From positions 9,704 to 72,759 of the forward strand of contig CAKKRC010000013.1 in the NCBI GenBank assembly GCA_919902495.1: a stretch of DNA of 63,056 nt, in the 5' to 3' direction. Source of the DNA: Nitrospiria bacterium. GTDB taxonomy: Bacteria; Nitrospirota; UBA9217. Within the stretch, counting starts at the first letter, position 1; each line of letters starts with the position of its first letter. The position numbers were made by a program, and so were the translations under genes. Shown piece after piece: positions 17,357 to 62,952 of the stretch. Below the pieces are notes generated by a model, which was not told the origin of the DNA, ran no database searches, and worked only from the letters and a program-made list of their open reading frames with translations.

Positions 17357-20300
17357 TCAGGGACAGCTTCCCCCGAAATTATGGCACCGGTCGCACTCGA
17401 CCGTAGATTCCCAACGATACGGAGTGCCCCAATTCACATTCGTCTGGCTCTGATGGCAGGAGACGTTCGAGCAGGTCTTCGTGGCTGGACTGTACGATGC
17501 GCTCATAAGGCTGTAGGGTGTGCTGTAGGGGAAGGTGTTCACCCGGTCAAAAACGACATCAGTGCTGCCGTTCACGTGCTTCGCGTAATTGTAGATAGGG
17601 ACGTCACTCTGCGTAGCGACGTCCATGGCATCACGGGTCCAGGTGTTCTGCGTGCGGATCGTCTCATTATGGCAGAAGCTGCAGCTGATCGGCGCGTATC
17701 CCATGTTCCAGTTGTGCAGGTTCCCGTACCCATAACTGTCCACCCAGAAATGGCTGTCCCCTGAGCCGCCGTCATTGGCGGGATAATCGGTCCTGGGCGC
17801 AATACCATGGCAGCCCGAGCAGGTGAGCGCACTGCTCCCCCAGGTCGGGGTACGGTAATACCGCGTCGTGACGAGGTTCGGCGGAAGGTAGGAGGAACAA
17901 TCCGTAGATTCCGGAACGCCGCCGGGCGTGGTCCAGTCATTGTAGCTGTGGCAATAGACGTTCTGGCAGGTCCCCTGCGTGTACGGAAATCCCCTGCCAT
18001 CGGTGAAAACCGTTCCGCCGGCAGTATACTCGGCTGAAGTTGCATTCCGGGACTTGAGTGAACCGCTCGGTGACTGGGCGCTGTACAGTTCGACCTCCAC
18101 CGTTCCATTATAGTGTTTCGCGGGATCCACAGGGTGGCAGTTGCCGCAGTTCATGATATAGACCGCGGCTGTGCCGGAGATGTCCTGGGCGATCCGGGTG
18201 TCTCCATACACTGCGTTATACATTGCGGCGGTCCCGAAATGTTTTACGTGGGACCCGGTCGGCGGCGGACAATCGTGACAGCTGTCGCAGGCAAATGCCC
18301 CCCACGTCGCCGCGCCATTGTTGTGGCAGCTGATGGTGCTGCAGGCGCCTCCCCCAGCGGCATAGGAGTAGGTAAAGGTCCTTGGCCCGCCGGCAATGAC
18401 ATCATAAGCCTTGTTCACGTGGTTCACCGTACTGCCGATCGTCGTGCCGTCGGACGTGGTCCCGGCGTGGCATTCGCCGCACCCAAAGGAATGGAATGCA
18501 TGTTTTGCGTGGCTGTTCGCCTTGGGGCTGCCATTCGCGTAGCCGGGAGGGTATCCGTGGCAGGAAGTGCAGGCAAGCGCCCCCGCACCCCACGGTGGCG
18601 AGGCGTTGGCGGGAATGGAACCTGTTGACACAGACGTCCCGTTACTGTGGCAGTAGGTATTTGAACAGTTTCCATAGGCATCGCCTGGCTGCGGAGTGCC
18701 GGAGTAGGTTATATTGGTCCCCCAATATTTTGAGGCGTTGACGTCAACAGCGTAATTCACATGGTTCGGTCGTGCGGACTCGCTGGGCAGATTGGCATGG
18801 CAACCTATACAGTCATTATTAATGTTGCCGGAGAACGCCGGATTATACGCATGGCAGTTTATGCATCCGAGGTTATAGGTGAAATGCTTGGCATGGTTTC
18901 CGGTGATAGCGCCGGTGATCGATGTCAGACTGATAGTGGCGTTCATAGTGCTTGCGCCAAAATGACAATTGTAGCATCTATACTGCAACGCCGCTCCCCA
19001 GTTGGGAGACCGGTAGGTAAGGGGATTGCCTGGCGGAGAGGTTTGCACATTGCTGTGGCAATAGACGTTCGTGCAGGTTCCATAGGCGTCCAGCACCGCG
19101 GGCGTGCCGCTGTACTGCCCTCCCGCAACCTTCGGATCAGCGCTTGAGAACGTCACTTCTGACAGGCCGTTCACATGGAGGGACGTGTCTGTCGACGGGT
19201 CCTTATGGCAAAGGGAGCAGGGGTATTTGAGCCCTTCATTCTCATTGAGCACAGCCTGTCCCACATGTATATAATTATGCGCCCCCCGTGTCGGCGAGTT
19301 ATATAAGATGTCTACCCCATGGCACGTGCCGCACTGTCCTGATGCGGCGTTTCCCCAGGCCGGCGTCGTGTTAGTCCCTCCATCAGGGGCGAGCGTCGCG
19401 CCGTGGCAGTAGACGTTCGAGCAGACCTTCGTACCGCCATTCGTGACAGTCGTTCCCGCGTTCCCCTTCGTGTAGGTGAACCCGTTGGCAAGGGACACCC
19501 TGCCGTCGTAGTTTCCGGTCTGATAGGCGCCATTCGCGATGTTGAACCCGATCTGGATGAGCTTGTCGTAGATCGGCGATGCCGGCATGCCGCCGCTGTG
19601 GCAGGTCGTGCAGGGATAGCCGAGCGACACGGCATGTTTCCCATGAGCGCCCGGCGTGGTCGGGCCGGTCCCGCCGTCGTTCAATGCCAGCCCGTCAGGC
19701 CCTCCCAGGACAGTGATCAAAGGAGGATTTCCATGGCAGCTGCCGCATTCCGCTTTGAACCCGGCCGTATGCCGGTGGCAGACCGTGCAGTCCCGTCCGG
19801 CCTGAAGTGCCGGATGACCGGGGCCTTCGAGGGTTCCGGCATTATTGAACGATGCGGTGTTGACATGGCAGACCTGGCAAATGGAGGTCATGTTCGCCGG
19901 GTCCGTGCTCGTCCCGAAGGAGCTCATGCCTGAAGCACCAAAGAACTTCACTGTCTTCATCCCGCCGGACGGCAGGCCGATCTCGGACCTCACCATCTTT
20001 CCGTACCGGATCGCGTAGGTGTTGCCCGGCTTAGCATACCTGCCGTCAATGGCGCCCGATACGGTTATCGAATTATTGGTATTCGATCTGATGTGGTACA
20101 TTTTCGTCGGATAGGCAACGTTCGGGACAAGGATATGATCGATCCACGCGTTCGGCGTCAGGCCGGCGGAGACGATAATGGTCGATTGAAGCGATGACAC
20201 GGGCACCTGGGTGTACGAAACGATCGTACCCGTGGCCAGGATCGCGGTCGAGTCGGTGGGATAGCTGCTGATCTGGTCCTGCAAGTGGGGGTTGTGGCAC

Positions 20301-20659
20301 CGGCGGCACTCAACGGTCCAGGCCGTGTATTTACCCGATGTGTTCTGGCTGGAATGGGTCTTGACGACATACCTGCTGTCGGTCATCTGCGACGGCATGT
20401 GACAGCTCGTACAGAGGTTATTGTAGAAGGTCTCGTCGGTCGTCGTCGGCTGAGTGGCCCAGGAAGGCGTGGGGCCTGCTGTGTCGTAATGGCACGAGGT
20501 GCAGGAAATCGTCATGGTCAGCGAGTTTTTTCCGTTATGCGGCGGGTCGATAGCGAGGGCATGCTCGTCCCCGGAGAGCGAGACGAACAGAACGATCGCT
20601 GCAGCAGTAACGTACGCGGACCATCGGAGAGGCAGGCAACTATTTACTGAAATTCTCAT
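17357..20659 (-). CDS. Large multiheme c-type cytochrome (CxxCH/CxxxxCH type)
   Basis: 1100 residues with an N-terminal signal segment (A-Y-V-T-A-A-A-I-V-L-F-V). I count 19 CxxCH motifs and 6 CxxxxCH motifs (such as C-S-N-V-Y-C-H, C-T-N-V-Y-C-H, C-S-T-I-S-C-H), giving up to 25 heme sites. The alternation of CxxxxCH with CxxCH about 30-60 residues later is the module described first in Geobacter multiheme proteins. It also has repeated H-A-K-H/H-V-K-H ligands. It is secreted to the periplasm or surface and is probably an electron conduit; no porin or partner gene is adjacent. A promoter-like sequence lies in the AT-rich upstream region. Confidence 0.92.
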   Translation of the reverse strand: MRISVNSCLPLRWSAYVTAAAIVLFVSLSGDEHALAIDPPHNGKNSLTMTISCTSCHYDTAGPTPSWATQPTTTDETFYNNLCTSCHMPSQMTDSRYVVKTHSSQNTSGKYTAWTVECRRCHNPHLQDQISSYPTDSTAILATGTIVSYTQVPVSSLQSTIIVSAGLTPNAWIDHILVPNVAYPTKMYHIRSNTNNSITVSGAIDGRYAKPGNTYAIRYGKMVRSEIGLPSGGMKTVKFFGASGMSSFGTSTDPANMTSICQVCHVNTASFNNAGTLEGPGHPALQAGRDCTVCHRHTAGFKAECGSCHGNPPLITVLGGPDGLALNDGGTGPTTPGAHGKHAVSLGYPCTTCHSGGMPASPIYDKLIQIGFNIANGAYQTGNYDGRVSLANGFTYTKGNAGTTVTNGGTKVCSNVYCHGATLAPDGGTNTTPAWGNAASGQCGTCHGVDILYNSPTRGAHNYIHVGQAVLNENEGLKYPCSLCHKDPSTDTSLHVNGLSEVTFSSADPKVAGGQYSGTPAVLDAYGTCTNVYCHSNVQTSPPGNPLTYRSPNWGAALQYRCYNCHFGASTMNATISLTSITGAITGNHAKHFTYNLGCINCHAYNPAFSGNINNDCIGCHANLPSESARPNHVNYAVDVNASKYWGTNITYSGTPQPGDAYGNCSNTYCHSNGTSVSTGSIPANASPPWGAGALACTSCHGYPPGYANGSPKANSHAKHAFHSFGCGECHAGTTSDGTTIGSTVNHVNKAYDVIAGGPRTFTYSYAAGGGACSTISCHNNGAATWGAFACDSCHDCPPPTGSHVKHFGTAAMYNAVYGDTRIAQDISGTAAVYIMNCGNCHPVDPAKHYNGTVEVELYSAQSPSGSLKSRNATSAEYTAGGTVFTDGRGFPYTQGTCQNVYCHSYNDWTTPGGVPESTDCSSYLPPNLVTTRYYRTPTWGSSALTCSGCHGIAPRTDYPANDGGSGDSHFWVDSYGYGNLHNWNMGYAPISCSFCHNETIRTQNTWTRDAMDVATQSDVPIYNYAKHVNGSTDVVFDRVNTFPYSTPYSLMSASYSPATKTCSNVSCHQSQTNVNWGTPYRWESTVECDRCHNFGGSCP

Positions 20660-24795: not shown

Positions 24796-25431
24796 TTATT
24801 TATCCTTCTCCTTGCCCCAGATCCTCTCAAGGTACTGGTCGCGGCCCGAATTGAAGCGGTAGAACTTGTAGCGCGTCGAACTCTTCCTGTAATAATCCTG
24901 ATGGTATTCCTCGGCAGGATAGAACTTCCCGGCGGGGACGATCTCCGTCACGATGGGCTTTCCGAACCTGCCCGAGGCATCAAGCTTCTTTTTGGAGTCC
25001 TCGGCCAGCCGCTTCTGCTCGTCGTTGTGATAAAAGACAGCAGTACGGTACTGGCTGCCCGTGTCCACGAACTGCCGGTCGCGCGTAGTCGGATCGATGT
25101 TCCGCCAGAAGACATCGAGAAGCTCCGCAAAGATTATCTGGGAGGGATCATAATGGACCTCCACGGCCTCGGCGTGTCCGGTACTGCCCGAGGTGACGTC
25201 CGCGTACTTGGGGTTCTCGGTCCTGCCTCCCGTATAGCCGGATATGACGGCCTCCACGCCTTTGAGCTTCTCGAAAGGCGGCTCCATGCACCAGAAACAT
25301 CCTCCCGCGAAGGTCGCCTTTTCGAGCTTCTTCGGGGACGCGGCAACTCCCTTTCCCCCTTCGCCCGCAAGTGACATATGCATCCCCCCCATGACCAGAA
25401 GAGCGCTTAAAAACAGCATGAACTTTTTCAT
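24796..25431 (-). CDS. msrA: Exported peptide-methionine (S)-S-oxide reductase MsrA
   Basis: 211 residues. An N-terminal signal (M-L-F-L-S-A-L-L-V-M-G-G) suggests export. The active site G-G-C-F-W-C is at residues 43-48 with catalytic C45; G-Y-T-G-G-R-T-E-N-P-K-Y, G-H-A-E-A-V-E-V and Y-R-T-A-V-F-Y follow as in the family. No C-terminal resolving cysteines are seen, so C48 or an external thiol may recycle it. The enzyme repairs S-methionine sulfoxide. It is divergent from the first sbtA gene, whose promoter begins ~90 bases away, and upstream of the candidate small selenoprotein. Confidence 0.93.
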   Translation of the reverse strand: MKKFMLFLSALLVMGGMHMSLAGEGGKGVAASPKKLEKATFAGGCFWCMEPPFEKLKGVEAVISGYTGGRTENPKYADVTSGSTGHAEAVEVHYDPSQIIFAELLDVFWRNIDPTTRDRQFVDTGSQYRTAVFYHNDEQKRLAEDSKKKLDASGRFGKPIVTEIVPAGKFYPAEEYHQDYYRKSSTRYKFYRFNSGRDQYLERIWGKEKDK

Positions 25432-25548: not shown

Positions 25549-25632
25549 TTTCCTATCGACGTTTCGTATTCCGATCGGCTTTTTCTATCGCGTTCCTCGA
25601 ACACACAATCCATAGGGGAAAGGAGGTGTACC

Positions 25633-25851
25633 ATGGACGCACAGGAACTCAGGAAGTTCCTGGCAGGGATTGGCATTGCCGGTCTCCTCGCGGGAACCAG
25701 CATGATGGCTGGAGGCTGCGCGGCAAAGAGCGGCTGAGGCGCCACAAAAGGTGATGCCCAGCAGGCTCCGGCAAAGAGTGGCTGAAGCGGCATGAAAGGT
25801 GACGCTCAGCAAACCCCTGCCCAGAGCAGCTGAAGCGGCACCAAGAAATAG
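25633..25851 (+). CDS. sbtA: Selenocysteine-containing RiPP precursor (SbtA-like), three UGA codons
   Basis: 72 residues when UGA is read as selenocysteine (U), start ATG behind a perfect AGGAGGTG site, stop UAG. The leader M-D-A-Q-E-L-R-K-F-L-A-G-I-G-I-A-G-L-L-A is shared with the second copy. UGA codons are at 25735-25737, 25783-25785 and 25831-25833, giving U35, U51 and U67, exactly 16 residues apart inside repeats of the form K-S-G-U-x-x-x-K-G-D-A-Q-Q. Conventional translation would stop after A-A-K-S-G. Its last UGA is followed at 21 nt by a GGUC-loop hairpin. I recall computational descriptions of such 'selenobiotic' precursors (SbtA) beside a radical SAM maturase (SbtM). C29 in M-A-G-G-C could alternatively be read as a lipobox. 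Product and modification are not shown by sequence. Confidence 0.85.
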
Positions 25852-25865
25852 TGCGGTCGCACTAT
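25848..25865 (+). promoter_or_regulatory. SECIS-like hairpin at the end of the first sbtA
   Basis: ATAGTGC pairs with GCACTAT around the loop GGTC (25855-25858). It overlaps the UAG stop. 21 nt separate the last UGA from the loop. The same hairpin occurs at 26342-26359. No T run follows, so it is not a terminator. Confidence 0.8.
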
Positions 25866-25903
25866 CCGGCATACCATGGATATACCAGCGCATGATCACG
25901 CGC

Positions 25904-25940
25904 CCCGGTCGGGACAGCAGTTCCTGCCCGGGATTTTTTT
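25904..25940 (+). terminator. Rho-independent terminator between the two sbtA genes
   Basis: CCCGG/CCGGG outer stem and GGGAC/GUUCC inner stem around an AGCA loop, followed by seven T (25934-25940). It suggests the first sbtA is transcribed alone. Confidence 0.7.
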
Positions 25941-25988
25941 CTATCCGGGGCCGCGCATCCGTTGCGTTGACACAGTTCACCCATCTCC

Positions 25989-26017
25989 TTGACAGCGAGC
26001 AGGCACCCTGATACTAT
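25989..26017 (+). promoter_or_regulatory. Promoter of the second selenopeptide gene
   Basis: TTGACA at 25989-25994, 17-base spacer, TACTAT at 26012-26017 (TATAAC at 26015-26020 is the alternative -10). Confidence 0.55.
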
Positions 26018-26114
26018 AACCGCTGGTTGTTCCTGGCTGTTCGACTTTTCCATAGGAATTGTCTATGGACTTTCGACAACACGAACGCTGACCAGGAAGG
26101 GAGGTGAAAGACCA

Positions 26115-26345
26115 ATGGATCAAAAGGATCTCAAAAAGTATCTGGCAGGGGTCGGCATCGCCGGTCTCCTGGCCGGCACCAGCCTCATCGCTGCGGAAAG
26201 CCCGAAAGCGGAGGGCACGCCCAAGTCCGCTCCCACCGGGAGCGCGCTGAAGTCGGAAGCGACGAAAACGGCGCCGGTAAAGAGCGGTTGAGGCGGCGCC
26301 AAGACGGAAACGCCCAAGAGCGGCTGAGGCGGTTCCAGGAAATAG
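26115..26345 (+). CDS. sbtA: Selenocysteine-containing RiPP precursor (SbtA-like), two UGA codons
   Basis: 76 residues with UGA read as U; ATG behind GGGAGGTG; stop UAG. The leader M-D-Q-K-D-L-K-K-Y-L-A-G-V-G-I-A-G-L-L-A matches the first copy closely, while the core differs: a longer Lys/Ser/Thr/Pro-rich spacer, then P-V-K-S-G-U59-G-G-A-K-T-E-T-P-K-S-G-U71-G-G-S-R-K. UGA codons are at 26289-26291 and 26325-26327. The last is followed at 21 nt by the identical GGUC-loop hairpin. It lacks the Cys of the first copy before the core, so only Sec can be the modified chalcogen residue. It lies directly upstream of the radical SAM maturase gene. Confidence 0.85.
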
Positions 26346-26359
26346 TGCGGTCGCACTAT
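26342..26359 (+). promoter_or_regulatory. SECIS-like hairpin at the end of the second sbtA
   Basis: Stem ATAGTGC/GCACTAT, loop GGTC at 26349-26352, overlapping the UAG stop and 21 nt past the UGA at 26325-26327; sequence and spacing are identical to the first gene although the cores between differ. Confidence 0.8.
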
Positions 26360-26406
26360 ACAAGAATTAGTAAGATCATCGCAGAAATCGCACCCTTCTG
26401 GCCCGG

Positions 26407-26434
26407 TGGACATCCGGGCAGACCATGGTATAAT
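26407..26434 (+). promoter_or_regulatory. Promoter of the maturase gene
   Basis: TGGACA at 26407-26412, 16-base spacer, extended -10 TGGTATAAT with TATAAT at 26429-26434. It places transcription start near 26441, which argues for the ATG at 26506 rather than 26449. Confidence 0.55.
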
Positions 26435-26505
26435 ACATCCCGGACACGATGCGAACATTGACCTCGCCTGTGACCGGGATATTTTTTTCATCCAGGATCG
26501 CCCAC

Positions 26506-28080
26506 ATGACCGGACCGGAGTTCCACAATATCTTTCCCGCCTGCCGAGCGGTCCTCGGACATGACGCATGGACCGCCGTCCTTGCTGCGTGTTCTGACGT
26601 CGGCGTAGACGCTGTTCCCGGCTGTCTCGCGAGAACTGCAGGTCCGCCGTTTCTCTCCGACCTCGCCCGGCTCGAACTGACCATAGGGCTCCTCTCGGAC
26701 GCCGCGTTGCCCGGCCCGGGCGGAAGTGAGAACCTCGCGGTCAACCCGACCGTACGCCTGCTCGAGCTTTCCTGGAAGGGACTGTGCTCCCTTCTGCCGC
26801 CAGCAAAGAGCCATGACGAGGGAACACCGGAGCAGGGCATCGAGCGCGTCCTCTCCTGGCGTGATCCAAACACGGGAGGCGTCGTTGCGCGGCCGGCAGA
26901 GAACGACGACCTCCTCGCGCTCAAGATGGCCGTTGAAGGCCTCTCTGCGGAAGCGGTCGCGGCCGAAGGCAAGCTTCCCGTCAGTGCCGTGGATGCGGTG
27001 ATCGACCGCGCCGTGCGGCAGGGCCTGCTCCTTGCTCCGCCTTCGAAACTCCGGCGCGACCCGGCGGTCTTCGCGGCAAAGCGGAAGAGCGACGAGGAAT
27101 TCCTTGTCTCCGATTCCTTCACGCTCCAGTGGCATATCACCCAGATCTGCGATCTGCACTGCAAACACTGCTACGACCGGACCGACCGTTCCCCCCTTAC
27201 CTTCGAGCAGGCGGTCAAGGTCCTCGACGACCTGCATGCCTTCTGCAAGGAACGCCGCGTCCAGGGCGCGATCTCCTTCACGGGAGGCAACCCCCTGCTC
27301 CACCCGCGGTTCCTGGACATCTACCGCGCCGCTGTGGACCGCGGGTTCGGCACCGCCATCCTCGGCAATCCCGCCCCCCGCGATCGTATTGAAGAGATCA
27401 TCAGCATTCAGAAACCCGTCTTCTTCCAGGTAAGCCTCGAGGGCCTGCGCGAGCACAACGACAGCATCCGCGGCACAGGCCACTTCGACCGCATCCTTGC
27501 GTTCCTCGATATCCTGCGCGATCTCGGCGTCTATTCCATGGTGATGCTCACGCTGACACGGGACAACATGGACCAGGTCATCCCGCTGGCGAAAGCGCTC
27601 CGGGACAAGGTTGATGTGTTCCACTTCAACCGCCTTGCGCTGTTCGGCGAAGGCGCGAACCTTTCGCTGCCCGACCGGAAGCGCTACCGGACCTTCCTCG
27701 AGGACTACCTTCAGGCCGCGGAGACGAACCCGGTCATGGGCATCAAGGAGAACCTCATCAACGTCCTGCGGCGCGAGAAGGGGATCGACCTCTACGGCGG
27801 CTGCGCCGGATACGGGTGCGGCGCCGCCTTCAACTTTGTCTCGCTCCTCGCCGACGGCGAGGTCCACGCATGCCGGAAGCTCCCCTCGCCCATCGGCAAC
27901 CTCTACCACGCTTCCCTCGCGGACATCTACGACTCCGAGAAGACGCGCCGCTACCGGCTCGGACCGTCGGCATGCCGGGGCTGCGACATACGCCCGGCAT
28001 GCGGAGGCTGTCTCGCCAGCACGCTGAGCCACGGCCTGAACATCTTCGAGAACAAGGACCCGTTCTGCTTTATAGAGTAG
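26506..28080 (+). CDS. sbtM: Radical SAM/SPASM maturase of the selenopeptides (SbtM-like)
   Basis: 524 residues from MTGPEFHNIFPACR. Residues 1-~200 form an N-terminal region with no motif I know, probably peptide recognition. The radical SAM core starts at F-T-L-Q-W-H-I-T-Q-I with the cluster motif C215-D-L-H-C219-K-H-C222, then F-T-G-G-N-P-L near 263. The C-terminal SPASM domain has C433, C438, C456 and the closing C490-x2-C493-x5-C499-x2-C502, enough for auxiliary [4Fe-4S] clusters, plus C521. Such enzymes modify RiPP precursors, for example by thioether formation. I recall this group being named SbtM, 'thio(seleno)oxazole modification' maturase, but the chemistry is predicted only. Its start lies ~160 bases after the second sbtA. 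Confidence 0.88.
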   Translation: MTGPEFHNIFPACRAVLGHDAWTAVLAACSDVGVDAVPGCLARTAGPPFLSDLARLELTIGLLSDAALPGPGGSENLAVNPTVRLLELSWKGLCSLLPPAKSHDEGTPEQGIERVLSWRDPNTGGVVARPAENDDLLALKMAVEGLSAEAVAAEGKLPVSAVDAVIDRAVRQGLLLAPPSKLRRDPAVFAAKRKSDEEFLVSDSFTLQWHITQICDLHCKHCYDRTDRSPLTFEQAVKVLDDLHAFCKERRVQGAISFTGGNPLLHPRFLDIYRAAVDRGFGTAILGNPAPRDRIEEIISIQKPVFFQVSLEGLREHNDSIRGTGHFDRILAFLDILRDLGVYSMVMLTLTRDNMDQVIPLAKALRDKVDVFHFNRLALFGEGANLSLPDRKRYRTFLEDYLQAAETNPVMGIKENLINVLRREKGIDLYGGCAGYGCGAAFNFVSLLADGEVHACRKLPSPIGNLYHASLADIYDSEKTRRYRLGPSACRGCDIRPACGGCLASTLSHGLNIFENKDPFCFIE

Positions 28081-28168
28081 TTGACTGTCCCCTTGTCCCC
28101 TTGTCCCCTTGTCCCCGTGTCCCCGTGTCGGACTTGACCTGTCCCCGCGTCTCCGCGTCTCCGCGTCA
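28081..28168. repeat. Tandem 'ccccttgt / ccccgtgt / tccgcgtc' tract after sbtM
   Basis: About a dozen imperfect 8-base direct repeats; no gene is encoded. Same family as 2549-2588, 24757-24789 and 62911-62952. Confidence 0.8.
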
Positions 28169-28233: not shown

Positions 28234-29703
28234 ATGGGTCCTCTTATTATTTTAAAATGCATAGATCTTCCGTCGCCTTCTGACACTGACCGGCGTGCCC
28301 TTGACCAGCGGCTCCGCGATGCTCTCGGCCTGGACCCGCTCCATATCCCGCTGTCCCTGCTCCGTTCGGTCCATTCCATCATCAGCGAGAAGCGGGAGCT
28401 CACCTGTGTCATCGGCCGGACCGGGAGCACGTATACGCTGATCGACATCGACCGGTCGCGGTCCTATTCCATCGCCCTCGACCTCGGCACTACCAACCTC
28501 GTCGCCCTGTTGTACGACAACCTGGAACAGAAGGACGTGCTGACCTGTTCCCTCGAGAATCCTCAGGTCGAGCACGGCAGCGACATCCTGACCCGCATGC
28601 ACCATGCCATGACGGGGAACGGTGAGGACTTGTATCGGGTGCTCCGGAACGGGGTCAATACGCTCATCGCGTCGCTCTGCCGCGGGGCGGGCATCAACGG
28701 CCGTGACATCCACGGCATGGCGGTGGCGGGGAACACGGCAATGACCCACTTCTTCCTCGGCCTCGATGTCAGCACCATCCCGGCGGCCCCCTGGGTCCCC
28801 GTGGTCAGAACGCCGGGGTTCTTCTCCGCCGCCGAACTCGGCCTGGACATGAATCCTGAGGCAGCCGTGTATGTGTTCCCGAACGCCGGGAGCTATGTGG
28901 GGGGCGACATCACCGCCGGCATCATCGCGACGGGCATGCATGCCTCCGTACGCACGAACATCCTGGTGGATGTCGGAACGAACGCCGAGGTGGTGATCGG
29001 GAACAGGGAGTGGATGATCGTGGGGGCCGGCGCTGCCGGGCCCGCGCTCGAAGAGGGGGTCTCAGCCATCGGGAAACGGGCGAAGAAAGGCATCGTCTAC
29101 GACGTGGAGATCGGCGACGGGGGGATTTCGTGCAAGACCTTCGACCAGGCCAGGCCTGAGGGCATCTGCGGCTCAGGCATGGTGAGCCTGCTCTATGAGC
29201 TTTACACCGCCGGCATCATCGACCAGACCGGCGTGCTGACCGGCAAACGGTATATCACCGAGGTCGCTGGCGAGAAGGCCTTCTCTATCAACTGCGACTG
29301 CGAGGACGCTCTCTTCATCACCCAGGGGGAGATCCAGAACTTCATGCGGTCCAAAGCCGCCATGTTCACGCTGCTGCTCACGCTCACCCGGTCCGTGGGC
29401 GTCTCGTTCGGGGACATCGAACGGGTATTCGTTGCCGGAGCGCTCGGCACGGGCATCGACGCGAAGAAGGCCGCCGGGATAGGCATGATGCCCGCATGGC
29501 CCCCGGATATCGTAAAGCCCATGGGCAATACATCGCTCGCGGGATGCCGCATGCTGCTCAGGGATTCAATGCTCGCTGATGTGGCTGACCGGCTCGTGGA
29601 CAAGATCACGTACAAGCATATGCACGACGACCCCGAGTTCATGAAGGAGTTCAGGGGCGCCGTGTTCATCCCCCACACGAACCCGGAACTGCTGAAGGTA
29701 TAG
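28234..29703 (+). CDS. ASKHA/DUF4445-family protein (corrinoid-activator-like ATPase)
   Basis: 489 residues from an ATG at 28234 (a GTG at 28216 is possible). The ASKHA core begins near residue 80 with I-A-L-D-L-G-T-T-N-L-V-A-L-L-Y, continues with A-V-A-G-N-T-A-M-T-H-F-F-L, and has L-V-D-V-G-T-N-A-E-V-V-I-G and F-V-A-G-A-L-G-T-G-I-D. These are the ATP-binding and DUF4445 elements of RACo-type reductive activators of corrinoid proteins. The usual N-terminal ferredoxin domain is missing: the first 80 residues lack clustered cysteines. It follows sbtM on the same strand after ~150 bases of repeats; a role in the selenopeptide system is possible but unsupported. Confidence 0.8.
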   Translation: MGPLIILKCIDLPSPSDTDRRALDQRLRDALGLDPLHIPLSLLRSVHSIISEKRELTCVIGRTGSTYTLIDIDRSRSYSIALDLGTTNLVALLYDNLEQKDVLTCSLENPQVEHGSDILTRMHHAMTGNGEDLYRVLRNGVNTLIASLCRGAGINGRDIHGMAVAGNTAMTHFFLGLDVSTIPAAPWVPVVRTPGFFSAAELGLDMNPEAAVYVFPNAGSYVGGDITAGIIATGMHASVRTNILVDVGTNAEVVIGNREWMIVGAGAAGPALEEGVSAIGKRAKKGIVYDVEIGDGGISCKTFDQARPEGICGSGMVSLLYELYTAGIIDQTGVLTGKRYITEVAGEKAFSINCDCEDALFITQGEIQNFMRSKAAMFTLLLTLTRSVGVSFGDIERVFVAGALGTGIDAKKAAGIGMMPAWPPDIVKPMGNTSLAGCRMLLRDSMLADVADRLVDKITYKHMHDDPEFMKEFRGAVFIPHTNPELLKV

Positions 29704-62910: not shown

Positions 62911-62952
62911 TTGTCCTGTCTCCGCGTCCCCCTGTCCCCGTGTCCCCGCGTC
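62911..62952. repeat. Tandem 'cccctgtccccgtgtc' tract downstream of aspS
   Basis: Same family of short direct repeats as at 2549-2588 and 28081-28168; it lies just after the aspS stop. Confidence 0.75.

Follow-up and report, generated by a model that had tools for sequence, protein, structure and literature searches.

A 63,056-nucleotide stretch of a Nitrospiria bacterium genome (contig CAKKRC010000013.1 of assembly GCA_919902495.1, hereafter the window) carries at positions 25,633 to 28,080 a locus that we identify with good confidence as an SbtA/SbtM cassette. In this reading, the in-frame UGA codons of two short precursor genes are likely decoded as selenocysteine (Sec), the adjoining radical SAM/SPASM enzyme SbtM would oxidise these residues to selenooxazoles, and the resulting peptide is predicted to be exported. 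The system is already known and its enzyme has been characterised; what sets the present locus apart is that the internal UGAs of the precursors in the window's clade lack a conventional selenocysteine insertion sequence (SECIS).

Two UGA-containing precursor genes adjoin an SbtM maturase

The genes of the cassette and their in-frame UGAs, in positions of the window, are as follows.

25621..25628, + strand: Shine-Dalgarno sequence AGGAGGTG of precursor 1, read from sequence
25633..25851, + strand: SbtA precursor 1, 72 residues, predicted Sec at 35, 51 and 67, TAG stop; TIGR04081, 37.3 bits
25735..25737, + strand: UGA 1 of precursor 1, context SGU, without conventional SECIS
25783..25785, + strand: UGA 2 of precursor 1, context SGU, without conventional SECIS
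25831..25833, + strand: UGA 3 of precursor 1, context SSU
26100..26106, + strand: Shine-Dalgarno sequence GGAGGTG of precursor 2, read from sequence
26115..26345, + strand: SbtA precursor 2, 76 residues, predicted Sec at 59 and 71, TAG stop; TIGR04081, 45.9 bits
26289..26291, + strand: UGA 1 of precursor 2, context SGU, without conventional SECIS
26325..26327, + strand: UGA 2 of precursor 2, context SGU
26506..28080, + strand: SbtM radical SAM/SPASM maturase, 524 residues; TIGR04082, Pfam Radical_SAM and SPASM, invariant cluster cysteines

Both precursor genes are preceded by a strong Shine-Dalgarno sequence. Translated with UGA as U, they read MDAQELRKFLAGIGIAGLLAGTSMMAGGCAAKSGUGATKGDAQQAPAKSGUSGMKGDAQQTPAQSSUSGTKK (precursor 1) and MDQKDLKKYLAGVGIAGLLAGTSLIAAESPKAEGTPKSAPTGSALKSEATKTAPVKSGUGGAKTETPKSGUGGSRK (precursor 2), which bears out an earlier, sequence-only reading of the locus as two short genes with a shared leader and five in-frame UGAs in S-G-U or S-S-U contexts. 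The leader is common to both precursors, both score above the NCBIfam cut-off of 30.5 for TIGR04081 (SbtA), all five UGAs stand in a core motif of the Ser-Gly-U type (SGU or SSU), and precursor 2 ends 160 nucleotides ahead of the SbtM start, adjoining the maturase as an SbtA precursor does. No further SbtA leader was found in the genome. A Ser codon followed by a Gly, Ser or Ala codon precedes 68 of the 1955 TGA trinucleotides on the two strands of the window, as against five of five precursor UGAs, so that the contexts of the latter are not due to chance. In a mechanical list of open reading frames (ORFs) of at least 50 residues, which is not the output of a gene caller, precursor 2 was cut at its first UGA and precursor 1 was missing, because only 34 codons precede the first UGA of the latter.

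The maturase, the longest frame of which opens at 26449 and would encode 543 residues, matched TIGR04082 (SbtM) with 715.8 bits against a cut-off of 350, over profile positions 1-516 of 516. C215/C219/C222 (CX3CX2C) and C490/C493/C499/C502 (SPASM) did not vary among 24 aligned sequences, one of them the window's own and the other 23 from relatives with identities as low as 57%. Maturases sharing 75-85% identity with that of the window were also among the matches listed. The 524-residue radical SAM/SPASM enzyme with these cysteines that had been read from the sequence is thus upheld by Pfam, by TIGR04082 and by the alignment, and a PDB search returned distant radical SAM relatives only. The same reading had named a predicted "selenobiotic" SbtA/SbtM family. 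The family models return this identity, but the family is by now more than a prediction, SbtM having been assayed in vitro (PMC11002830), and the word selenobiotic was not found in the papers searched.

Selenocysteine machinery and relatives of the cassette

Genes for selA, selB, selC and selD, the absence of which from the genome would have spoken against Sec, were all present above their cut-offs: tRNA-Sec (64.1 bits, UCA anticodon), SelA (530 bits), SelB (383.6 bits) and SelD (364.5 bits). The SelD gene itself contains one in-frame UGA (context TCGU), and the hairpin behind it conforms to the SECIS geometry of the literature. Judged by its gene content, the genome is able to make selenocysteine.

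Genome contigs were scanned for SbtM, and the best 80 of 190 loci, which were taken for analysis, came mostly from Deltaproteobacteria/Desulfobacterota and Nitrospirota. SbtM was above cut-off in 27 of 395 sampled genomes of the window's phylum, an even draw from the larger phylum, and SbtA was present in 5 of the 14 genomes of the window's family, the window's own included. A leader profile seeded from the window yielded 105 matches (80 precursors from the SbtM loci and the window, and 25 from further genome stretches), corresponding to 95 distinct precursor genes including the window's two; a stand-alone SbtA gene, L161, falls outside the 95. Motif sites were defined by the pattern [SGATKNQ][SGA][UC] from residue 30 on, a filter that excludes 30 UGA positions comprising frame overruns, second UGAs (e.g. 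SGUSU) and a few likely real sites.

Of the 95 precursors, 9 have no UGA, 3 have one, 36 have two, 40 have three and 7 have four. Precursors with several UGAs are thus the norm (at least two in 83/95, the window's included), and SbtA illustrates that selenium can be written several times into one ribosomal peptide. The exchange of UGA for Cys codons among homologues, proposed as a check in the sequence-only reading, was indeed found: 76 precursors have UGA only at their motif sites, 10 have both UGA and Cys, 8 have Cys only (L089 being doubtful) and 1 has neither; one motif site, in L024, reads GAA. UAA or UAG in place of UGA at the motif positions, which would argue against Sec, gave no clear case among the 95 precursors; five frames end in Ser or Gly followed by TAA or TAG, four of them within two residues after a UGA motif, where the stop is readable as a natural end. 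The precursors L044, L064, L065, L066, L085 (Desulfosarcina alkanivorans PL12, a strain with a complete genome), L091 and L093 end in S-G-UGA-S/G-UGA, the first UGA being predicted by its motif to encode Sec and the second, two codons further on, being an apparent stop. In the table of a 2026 paper (PMC13188914), TIGR04081 is named Selenobacteriocin, with 2 Sec and the motif SGUG. Among the literature matches listed, none had already described SbtA with several UGAs or a bacterial SECIS shared by several UGAs; most subscription papers lie outside this search.

Nearly all UGAs outside the window's clade have their own SECIS-type hairpins

In the published model of bacterial SECIS elements, an apical loop of 3-9 nucleotides with a G in its first two positions tops an upper stem of 4-16 base pairs at a UGA-to-loop distance of 16-37 nucleotides, and some predicted elements depart from the model (PMC13188914). 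This geometry was applied with a hairpin energy of -5 kcal/mol and also with -7.5, the value given in that paper for the SECIS element and imposed here on the hairpin alone. Outside the window's clade, which consists of the window and L023-L026 (five genomes), a model hairpin followed 118/126 internal and 75/78 last UGAs at -5, compared to 12/45 Cys sites; at -7.5 the counts were 90/126, 57/78 and 6/45, respectively, and in minimum-energy folds of 45 nucleotides they were 107/126, 72/78 and 8/45. Nearly every UGA outside the window's clade thus has its own SECIS-type hairpin. With a loose hairpin threshold, 191/204 sites passed, as against about 82/204 in synonymous shuffles, and because of this high shuffle rate the published model was relied on instead. 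Some hairpins are also found at Cys sites (9/45 in a further count), with a z-score of -2.0 for nucleotides 10-39.

The stems moreover covary. An alignment from which all sequence of the window was excluded (A2) comprised 83 distinct segments out of 91 in one register, drawn from the 106 sites with exactly one GGT among 223 UGA sites. In these 83 sites from other organisms, 86.3% of the cells were paired compared to 67.7% in shuffles, and changes on both sides of the stem were seen in 113 cells compared to 30, none of 500 shuffles reaching as high. Sliding the register reduced pairing to 25-50%, and swapping the 3' arms among sites reduced fully paired stems from 77/106 to a mean of 33 and a maximum of 42. 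Nucleotides 10-39 after the internal UGAs outside the clade folded far below synonymous shuffles (z -20), as against z +1.1 for nucleotides 1-24. Since the stems covary and fold beyond synonymous shuffles, the linkers of the precursor peptides look partly dictated by RNA structure, and in most surveyed precursors those between Sec residues (GAGGT, SAVST and others) double as the coding sequence of SECIS-type hairpins. In L084, L095, L144, L149, L071, L027, L029 and L161, pairs of UGAs 3-6 codons apart are followed by one downstream SECIS-type hairpin; twelve genes with such closely spaced pairs were listed in other lineages, some of them frame overruns, and one SECIS per UGA may therefore not be strict in these lineages.

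In the window's clade only the last UGA has a conventional hairpin

The candidate RNA elements of the two precursor genes are as follows.

25738..25758, + strand: UGA-adjacent hairpin after UGA 1 of precursor 1, candidate cis element, 4+3 base pairs with an A-rich loop; suggestive only
25786..25806, + strand: UGA-adjacent hairpin after UGA 2 of precursor 1, candidate cis element; suggestive only
25848..25865, + strand: conventional SECIS-type hairpin ATAGTGC-GGTC-GCACTAT of precursor 1, 14 nucleotides after UGA 3, overlapping the TAG stop
26292..26314, + strand: UGA-adjacent hairpin after UGA 1 of precursor 2, candidate cis element; suggestive only
26342..26359, + strand: conventional SECIS-type hairpin of precursor 2, the same 18 nucleotides as in precursor 1, 14 nucleotides after UGA 2, overlapping the TAG stop

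A near-invariant hairpin lies 11 to 15 nucleotides after the last UGA of seven clade precursors, with the sequence ATAGTGCGGTCGCACTAT in 6/7. All seven (2/2 in the window) pass the model at both -5 and -7.5, with free energies (dG) of -7.6 to -7.9. In contrast, none of the 12 internal UGAs of the clade (0/3 in the window) has a model hairpin at a dG of -5; a weak stem of at least 4 base pairs lies in the model's range at 7/12 of them, a dG of -3 being reached by one (-3.6). Minimum-energy folds of 45 nucleotides passed at 6/7 last and 1/12 internal UGAs. The confinement of the conventional hairpin to the last UGA of each precursor in the window's clade is what is new here, and the sequence-only reading had passed over its absence at three of the window's five UGAs. 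Cys-only relatives of SbtA can do without a SECIS, so that the missing internal elements set the clade apart from conventional decoding while leaving its place in the SbtA family untouched. In an eighth clade precursor, precursor 1 of L024, the third site has changed from UGA to the GAA mentioned above while the hairpin is kept and two UGAs remain upstream.

A covariance model built from other organisms (R1) placed the terminal hairpins of the two genes at the top of its list for the window, although weakly, at 15.5 bits (E 0.21) and 15.0 bits (E 0.27), with an unrelated third match at 14.7 bits. On the + strand, the part of each gene that runs from its first internal UGA to its terminal hairpin scored no higher than 3.3 bits. 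No Rfam family reached its gathering score in the window. When the window's hairpins were compared one by one with dinucleotide shuffles, neither the terminal (z -0.41 and -0.88) nor the internal ones (z -0.08, -0.32 and +0.65) were significant, and the case for SECIS elements is therefore a comparative one.

After the clade's internal UGAs, nucleotides 10-39 are not more stably folded than in synonymous shuffles (z +0.8). Pooled over these sites, nucleotides 1-24 gave a z-score of -3.7, with 0/300 synonymous shuffles as low, and a signal of this size arose in 0.05% of sets of 12 random coding 24-mers; a second run, on 11 of the sites and with a different codon table, gave 4/300 shuffles as low. 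Over nucleotides 1-42 of the same sites the signal was absent (70/300 and 221/300 as low). The support is moderate: by subgroup, 9, 27 and 98 of 1000 shuffles were as low, the 12 sites have a common ancestry, and 2 of the 6 KGDA sites fold no better than shuffles. The usual shape is a 4-base-pair stem that starts at the base after the UGA and closes an A-rich loop. MAFFT misaligned the 12 internal sites (A3), and in an alignment of six sites (A4) the stem is nearly invariant. The stand-alone SbtA gene L161, located on another contig than the cassette in G063, which is taken as the genome of L026, has conventional SECIS-type hairpins at its UGAs, the first two sharing one. Together with the conventional hairpin of the window's SelD, this suggests that ordinary SECIS elements are in use in these genomes.

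Probable decoding of the internal UGAs

Over the 21 codons after the first UGA, precursor 1 and its L023 homologue differ at 0, 0 and 8 sites of codon positions 1, 2 and 3, respectively; the frame beyond this UGA thus looks translated. Pairs at greater distance give a mixed picture. For precursor 2, over the few codons after the first UGA, comparison with its two homologues gave 3 synonymous and 5 non-synonymous changed codons, and 1 and 4, respectively, and a third comparison gave 2 and 3. Across the five clade genomes, 12/12 internal UGAs retain an S-[GS]-U or G-S-U motif. All five UGAs of the window are likely decoded as selenocysteine. In the first step of the proposed pathway, SelA, SelD, tRNA-Sec and SelB, the genes of which were found in the genome, would read the UGAs in their S-G-U and S-S-U contexts, the last UGA of each precursor making use of the conventional hairpin and the three internal ones presumably of a hairpin starting at the UGA or of help from the terminal SECIS.

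The internal UGAs may accordingly be decoded by either of two routes: the UGA-adjacent hairpin may be a distinct type of SECIS, or the terminal SECIS may serve several UGAs. Of these routes, the more conservative is that of an unusual SECIS, since PMC13188914 admits elements outside the model. That a single SECIS at the stop codon decodes several Sec codons in the window's Nitrospirota clade, helped by hairpins at each internal UGA, is put forward tentatively as a possibility; the retention of the terminal hairpin in L024, in spite of the GAA and with two UGAs upstream, is a supporting sign. As an exception to the pattern of one SECIS per UGA, this clade lends itself to asking whether Sec insertion in bacteria really depends on a separate SECIS immediately downstream of every UGA.

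The internal UGAs could also act mostly as stops, so that the genes would yield mainly a truncated leader peptide and a minor read-through product with a terminal Sec. The lack of conventional hairpins with a dG of -5 or better at the clade's 12 internal UGAs speaks for this explanation, as does the partial efficiency of recoding in bacteria, which is 30-40% in vivo even where a SECIS is present (PMC4513850). We consider it quite unlikely nonetheless, in view of the codon-position pattern past the first UGA of precursor 1, the unbroken retention of the Sec motif, and the low folding energy of the first 24 nucleotides in both shuffle runs. Reassignment of UGA to another amino acid, or decay of the precursor frames to pseudogenes, would account for five in-frame UGAs within two short genes and can practically be dismissed, given that UGA ends 18 of the 35 open frames of at least 300 codons in the six frames of the window (some of these frames not being genes) and is still an ordinary stop in this genome, that a tRNA-Sec with a UCA anticodon is present, and that related genes hold the motif while exchanging UGA with Cys codons.

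Maturation, export and possible role of the product

Lewis et al. 2021 reportedly studied the SbtM protein WP_083768621 in vitro. With this enzyme, Cys and Sec peptides lose four hydrogens, and the Cys product was identified as a thiooxazole by nuclear magnetic resonance (PMC11002830); the modified SbtM peptide has been classed with bufferins and related thiooxazoles by its absorbance at ~305 nm (PMC12538549, PMC12668002). From this published chemistry we infer that every modified S-[GS]-U of the window's precursors becomes a selenooxazole, in keeping with the sequence-only reading, which had taken the U residues to be modified to give a selenium-containing peptide: in a second step, SbtM would remove four hydrogens per Sec, with the ring being closed with the carbonyl of the preceding residue.

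The leader has Lys or Arg among its first nine residues, followed by a hydrophobic core; the mean hydropathy of residues 9-26 is 1.83 in precursors compared to 0.02 in background ORFs. A PROSITE-style lipobox pattern matched 45/95 precursors as against 20/818 other ORFs of the same loci, and precursor 1 has a lipobox-like match at C29. A loosely defined AxA-like end is present in 31 of the 50 precursors without a lipobox. None of the 95 precursors has a UGA among residues 21-30, which fits a lipidation or cleavage site in this region rather than a modified core. In a third step, this leader, with its lipobox-like Cys29 in precursor 1, would direct export, so that the cassette would need no dedicated protease. 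Export signals likewise stand in place of RiPP (ribosomally synthesised and post-translationally modified peptide) leaders in MNIO-modified copper peptides (PMC12452194), and lipidation by the lipoprotein pathway has been predicted for some MNIO peptides and shown for one (PMC12452194, PMC12636315).

Neighbourhoods were compared by clustering ORFs of at least 90 residues from 99 loci, the flanks of which extended to 6 kb at most and were often shorter; this set showed no recurring family of proteases, exporters or immunity proteins around the cassette. Based on the export-like leader and this lack of a recurring protease or transporter nearby, we infer that the product is an exported, partly lipidated, soft-metal-binding selenopeptide rather than an antibiotic. 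The analogy with copper-binding thiooxazole peptides, one of which, of related chemistry, bound Cu(I) (PMC12668002, PMC12538549), suggests a fourth step, in which the repeated selenium heterocycles may capture soft metals, for instance Cu(I), in the cell envelope. Cys-only relatives (e.g. L058 and L078) carry GSCG repeats reminiscent of the EGKCG repeats of one group of MNIO copper peptides.

A role of the selenium heterocycles in envelope redox reactions or electron transfer, in place of metal binding, would suit the prevalence of Deltaproteobacteria/Desulfobacterota and Nitrospirota among the carriers and the large multihaem cytochrome that the window encodes ~5 kb upstream. Every cytochrome cluster comprised fewer than five of the 99 loci, the window's own cytochrome lying only partly inside the clustered stretch, and the Cu(I) binding of a thiooxazole peptide of the same chemistry favours metal binding; a redox role is therefore unlikely, if the best placed of the alternatives. 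Less likely again, and in our view improbable, is a secreted antimicrobial. The name Selenobacteriocin given to TIGR04081 in the table of PMC13188914 implies such a product, whereas no transporter, protease or immunity gene recurs in the 99 neighbourhoods within their limited flanks, and the leader, which matches a lipobox pattern in nearly half of the precursors, resembles a signal for general export.

Several observations count against the account of the locus as a source of exported, multiply Sec-containing peptides. Lacking a conventional SECIS, three of the window's five UGAs could often terminate translation. The other 12 pairwise comparisons are less one-sided than that of precursor 1 with L023, the only cleanly synonymous one. 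The tRNA-Sec gene is on contig C108 and selA/selB are on contig C45, so that the piece with tRNA-Sec may have been mis-binned. Precursor 2 has no lipobox, and no metal gene recurs near the cassette in the 99 loci within the flanks compared.

Genes around the cassette

The maturase cluster was common to 95/99 loci. The next clusters, present in 16 and 13 loci, were response-regulator-like by eye, and smaller ones were MsrA-like and ABC-type ATPase (6 loci each, by eye). The cassette is thus made up of precursor and maturase, the 16- and 13-locus clusters not being obvious pathway genes. In the window, a methionine sulfoxide reductase (MsrA) is encoded just upstream (24796-25431, - strand); with MsrA-like genes in only 6/99 loci, it is not part of the cassette. 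Further upstream, an 1100-residue multihaem protein (17357-20659, - strand) with 19 CxxCH and 6 CxxxxCH motifs belongs to a Geobacter CxxxxCH..CXXCH family. Directly after sbtM lies a gene for a RACo-type corrinoid-activation ASKHA protein (28264-29703, + strand), which matches the AcsV profile below cut-off. Degenerate intergenic TGTCCCC / GTCTCCG repeats occur at 28086-28160 and 62917-62941 of the window, and at ~1190-1330 of L001, and thus at more than one site of the genome.

Comparison with known systems

The locus shares with the SbtA/SbtM system (TIGR04081/TIGR04082) its leader family, the S-G-U motif, an adjoining radical SAM/SPASM maturase and the Sec machinery. It differs in having two precursors (3 + 2 UGAs), in each of which the last UGA alone is followed by a conventional hairpin. 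For the system at large, the 2026 table lists 2 Sec, and up to 4 were counted among the precursors surveyed here. Measured against the conventional bacterial SECIS, the terminal hairpins of the window fit, with a GGUC loop and 21 nucleotides from UGA to loop, and the internal UGAs of the clade do not (0/12 at a dG of -5 or better).

In eukaryotic selenoprotein P and with the Sec redefinition element, several UGAs are served by a SECIS at the gene end, and hairpins lie directly at UGAs. The window is alike in having several UGAs, in its end SECIS and in the candidate hairpins at its UGAs, and differs in that it comes from a bacterium and involves SelB and a SECIS of the bacterial type. Were a single SECIS to serve all UGAs of a precursor, the clade would offer a bacterial counterpart of this arrangement, an analogy that we raise as conceivable rather than probable.

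Captophorins and bufferins, the copper-binding 5-thiooxazole peptides made by MNIO enzymes, resemble the window's precursors in their repeated Cys-Gly motifs (EGKCG in one group), in their heterocycle and in a leader that is an export signal. They are made from Cys by an MNIO enzyme with a partner protein, whereas the window has a radical SAM enzyme and Sec, and a Pfam scan of 14 proteins of the window brought up no MNIO family; the locus is thus not a member of that group. An exported chelator with selenooxazole rings, if this is what the locus produces, would represent a radical-SAM-made selenium parallel to the copper-binding thiooxazole peptides, a group defined only recently.

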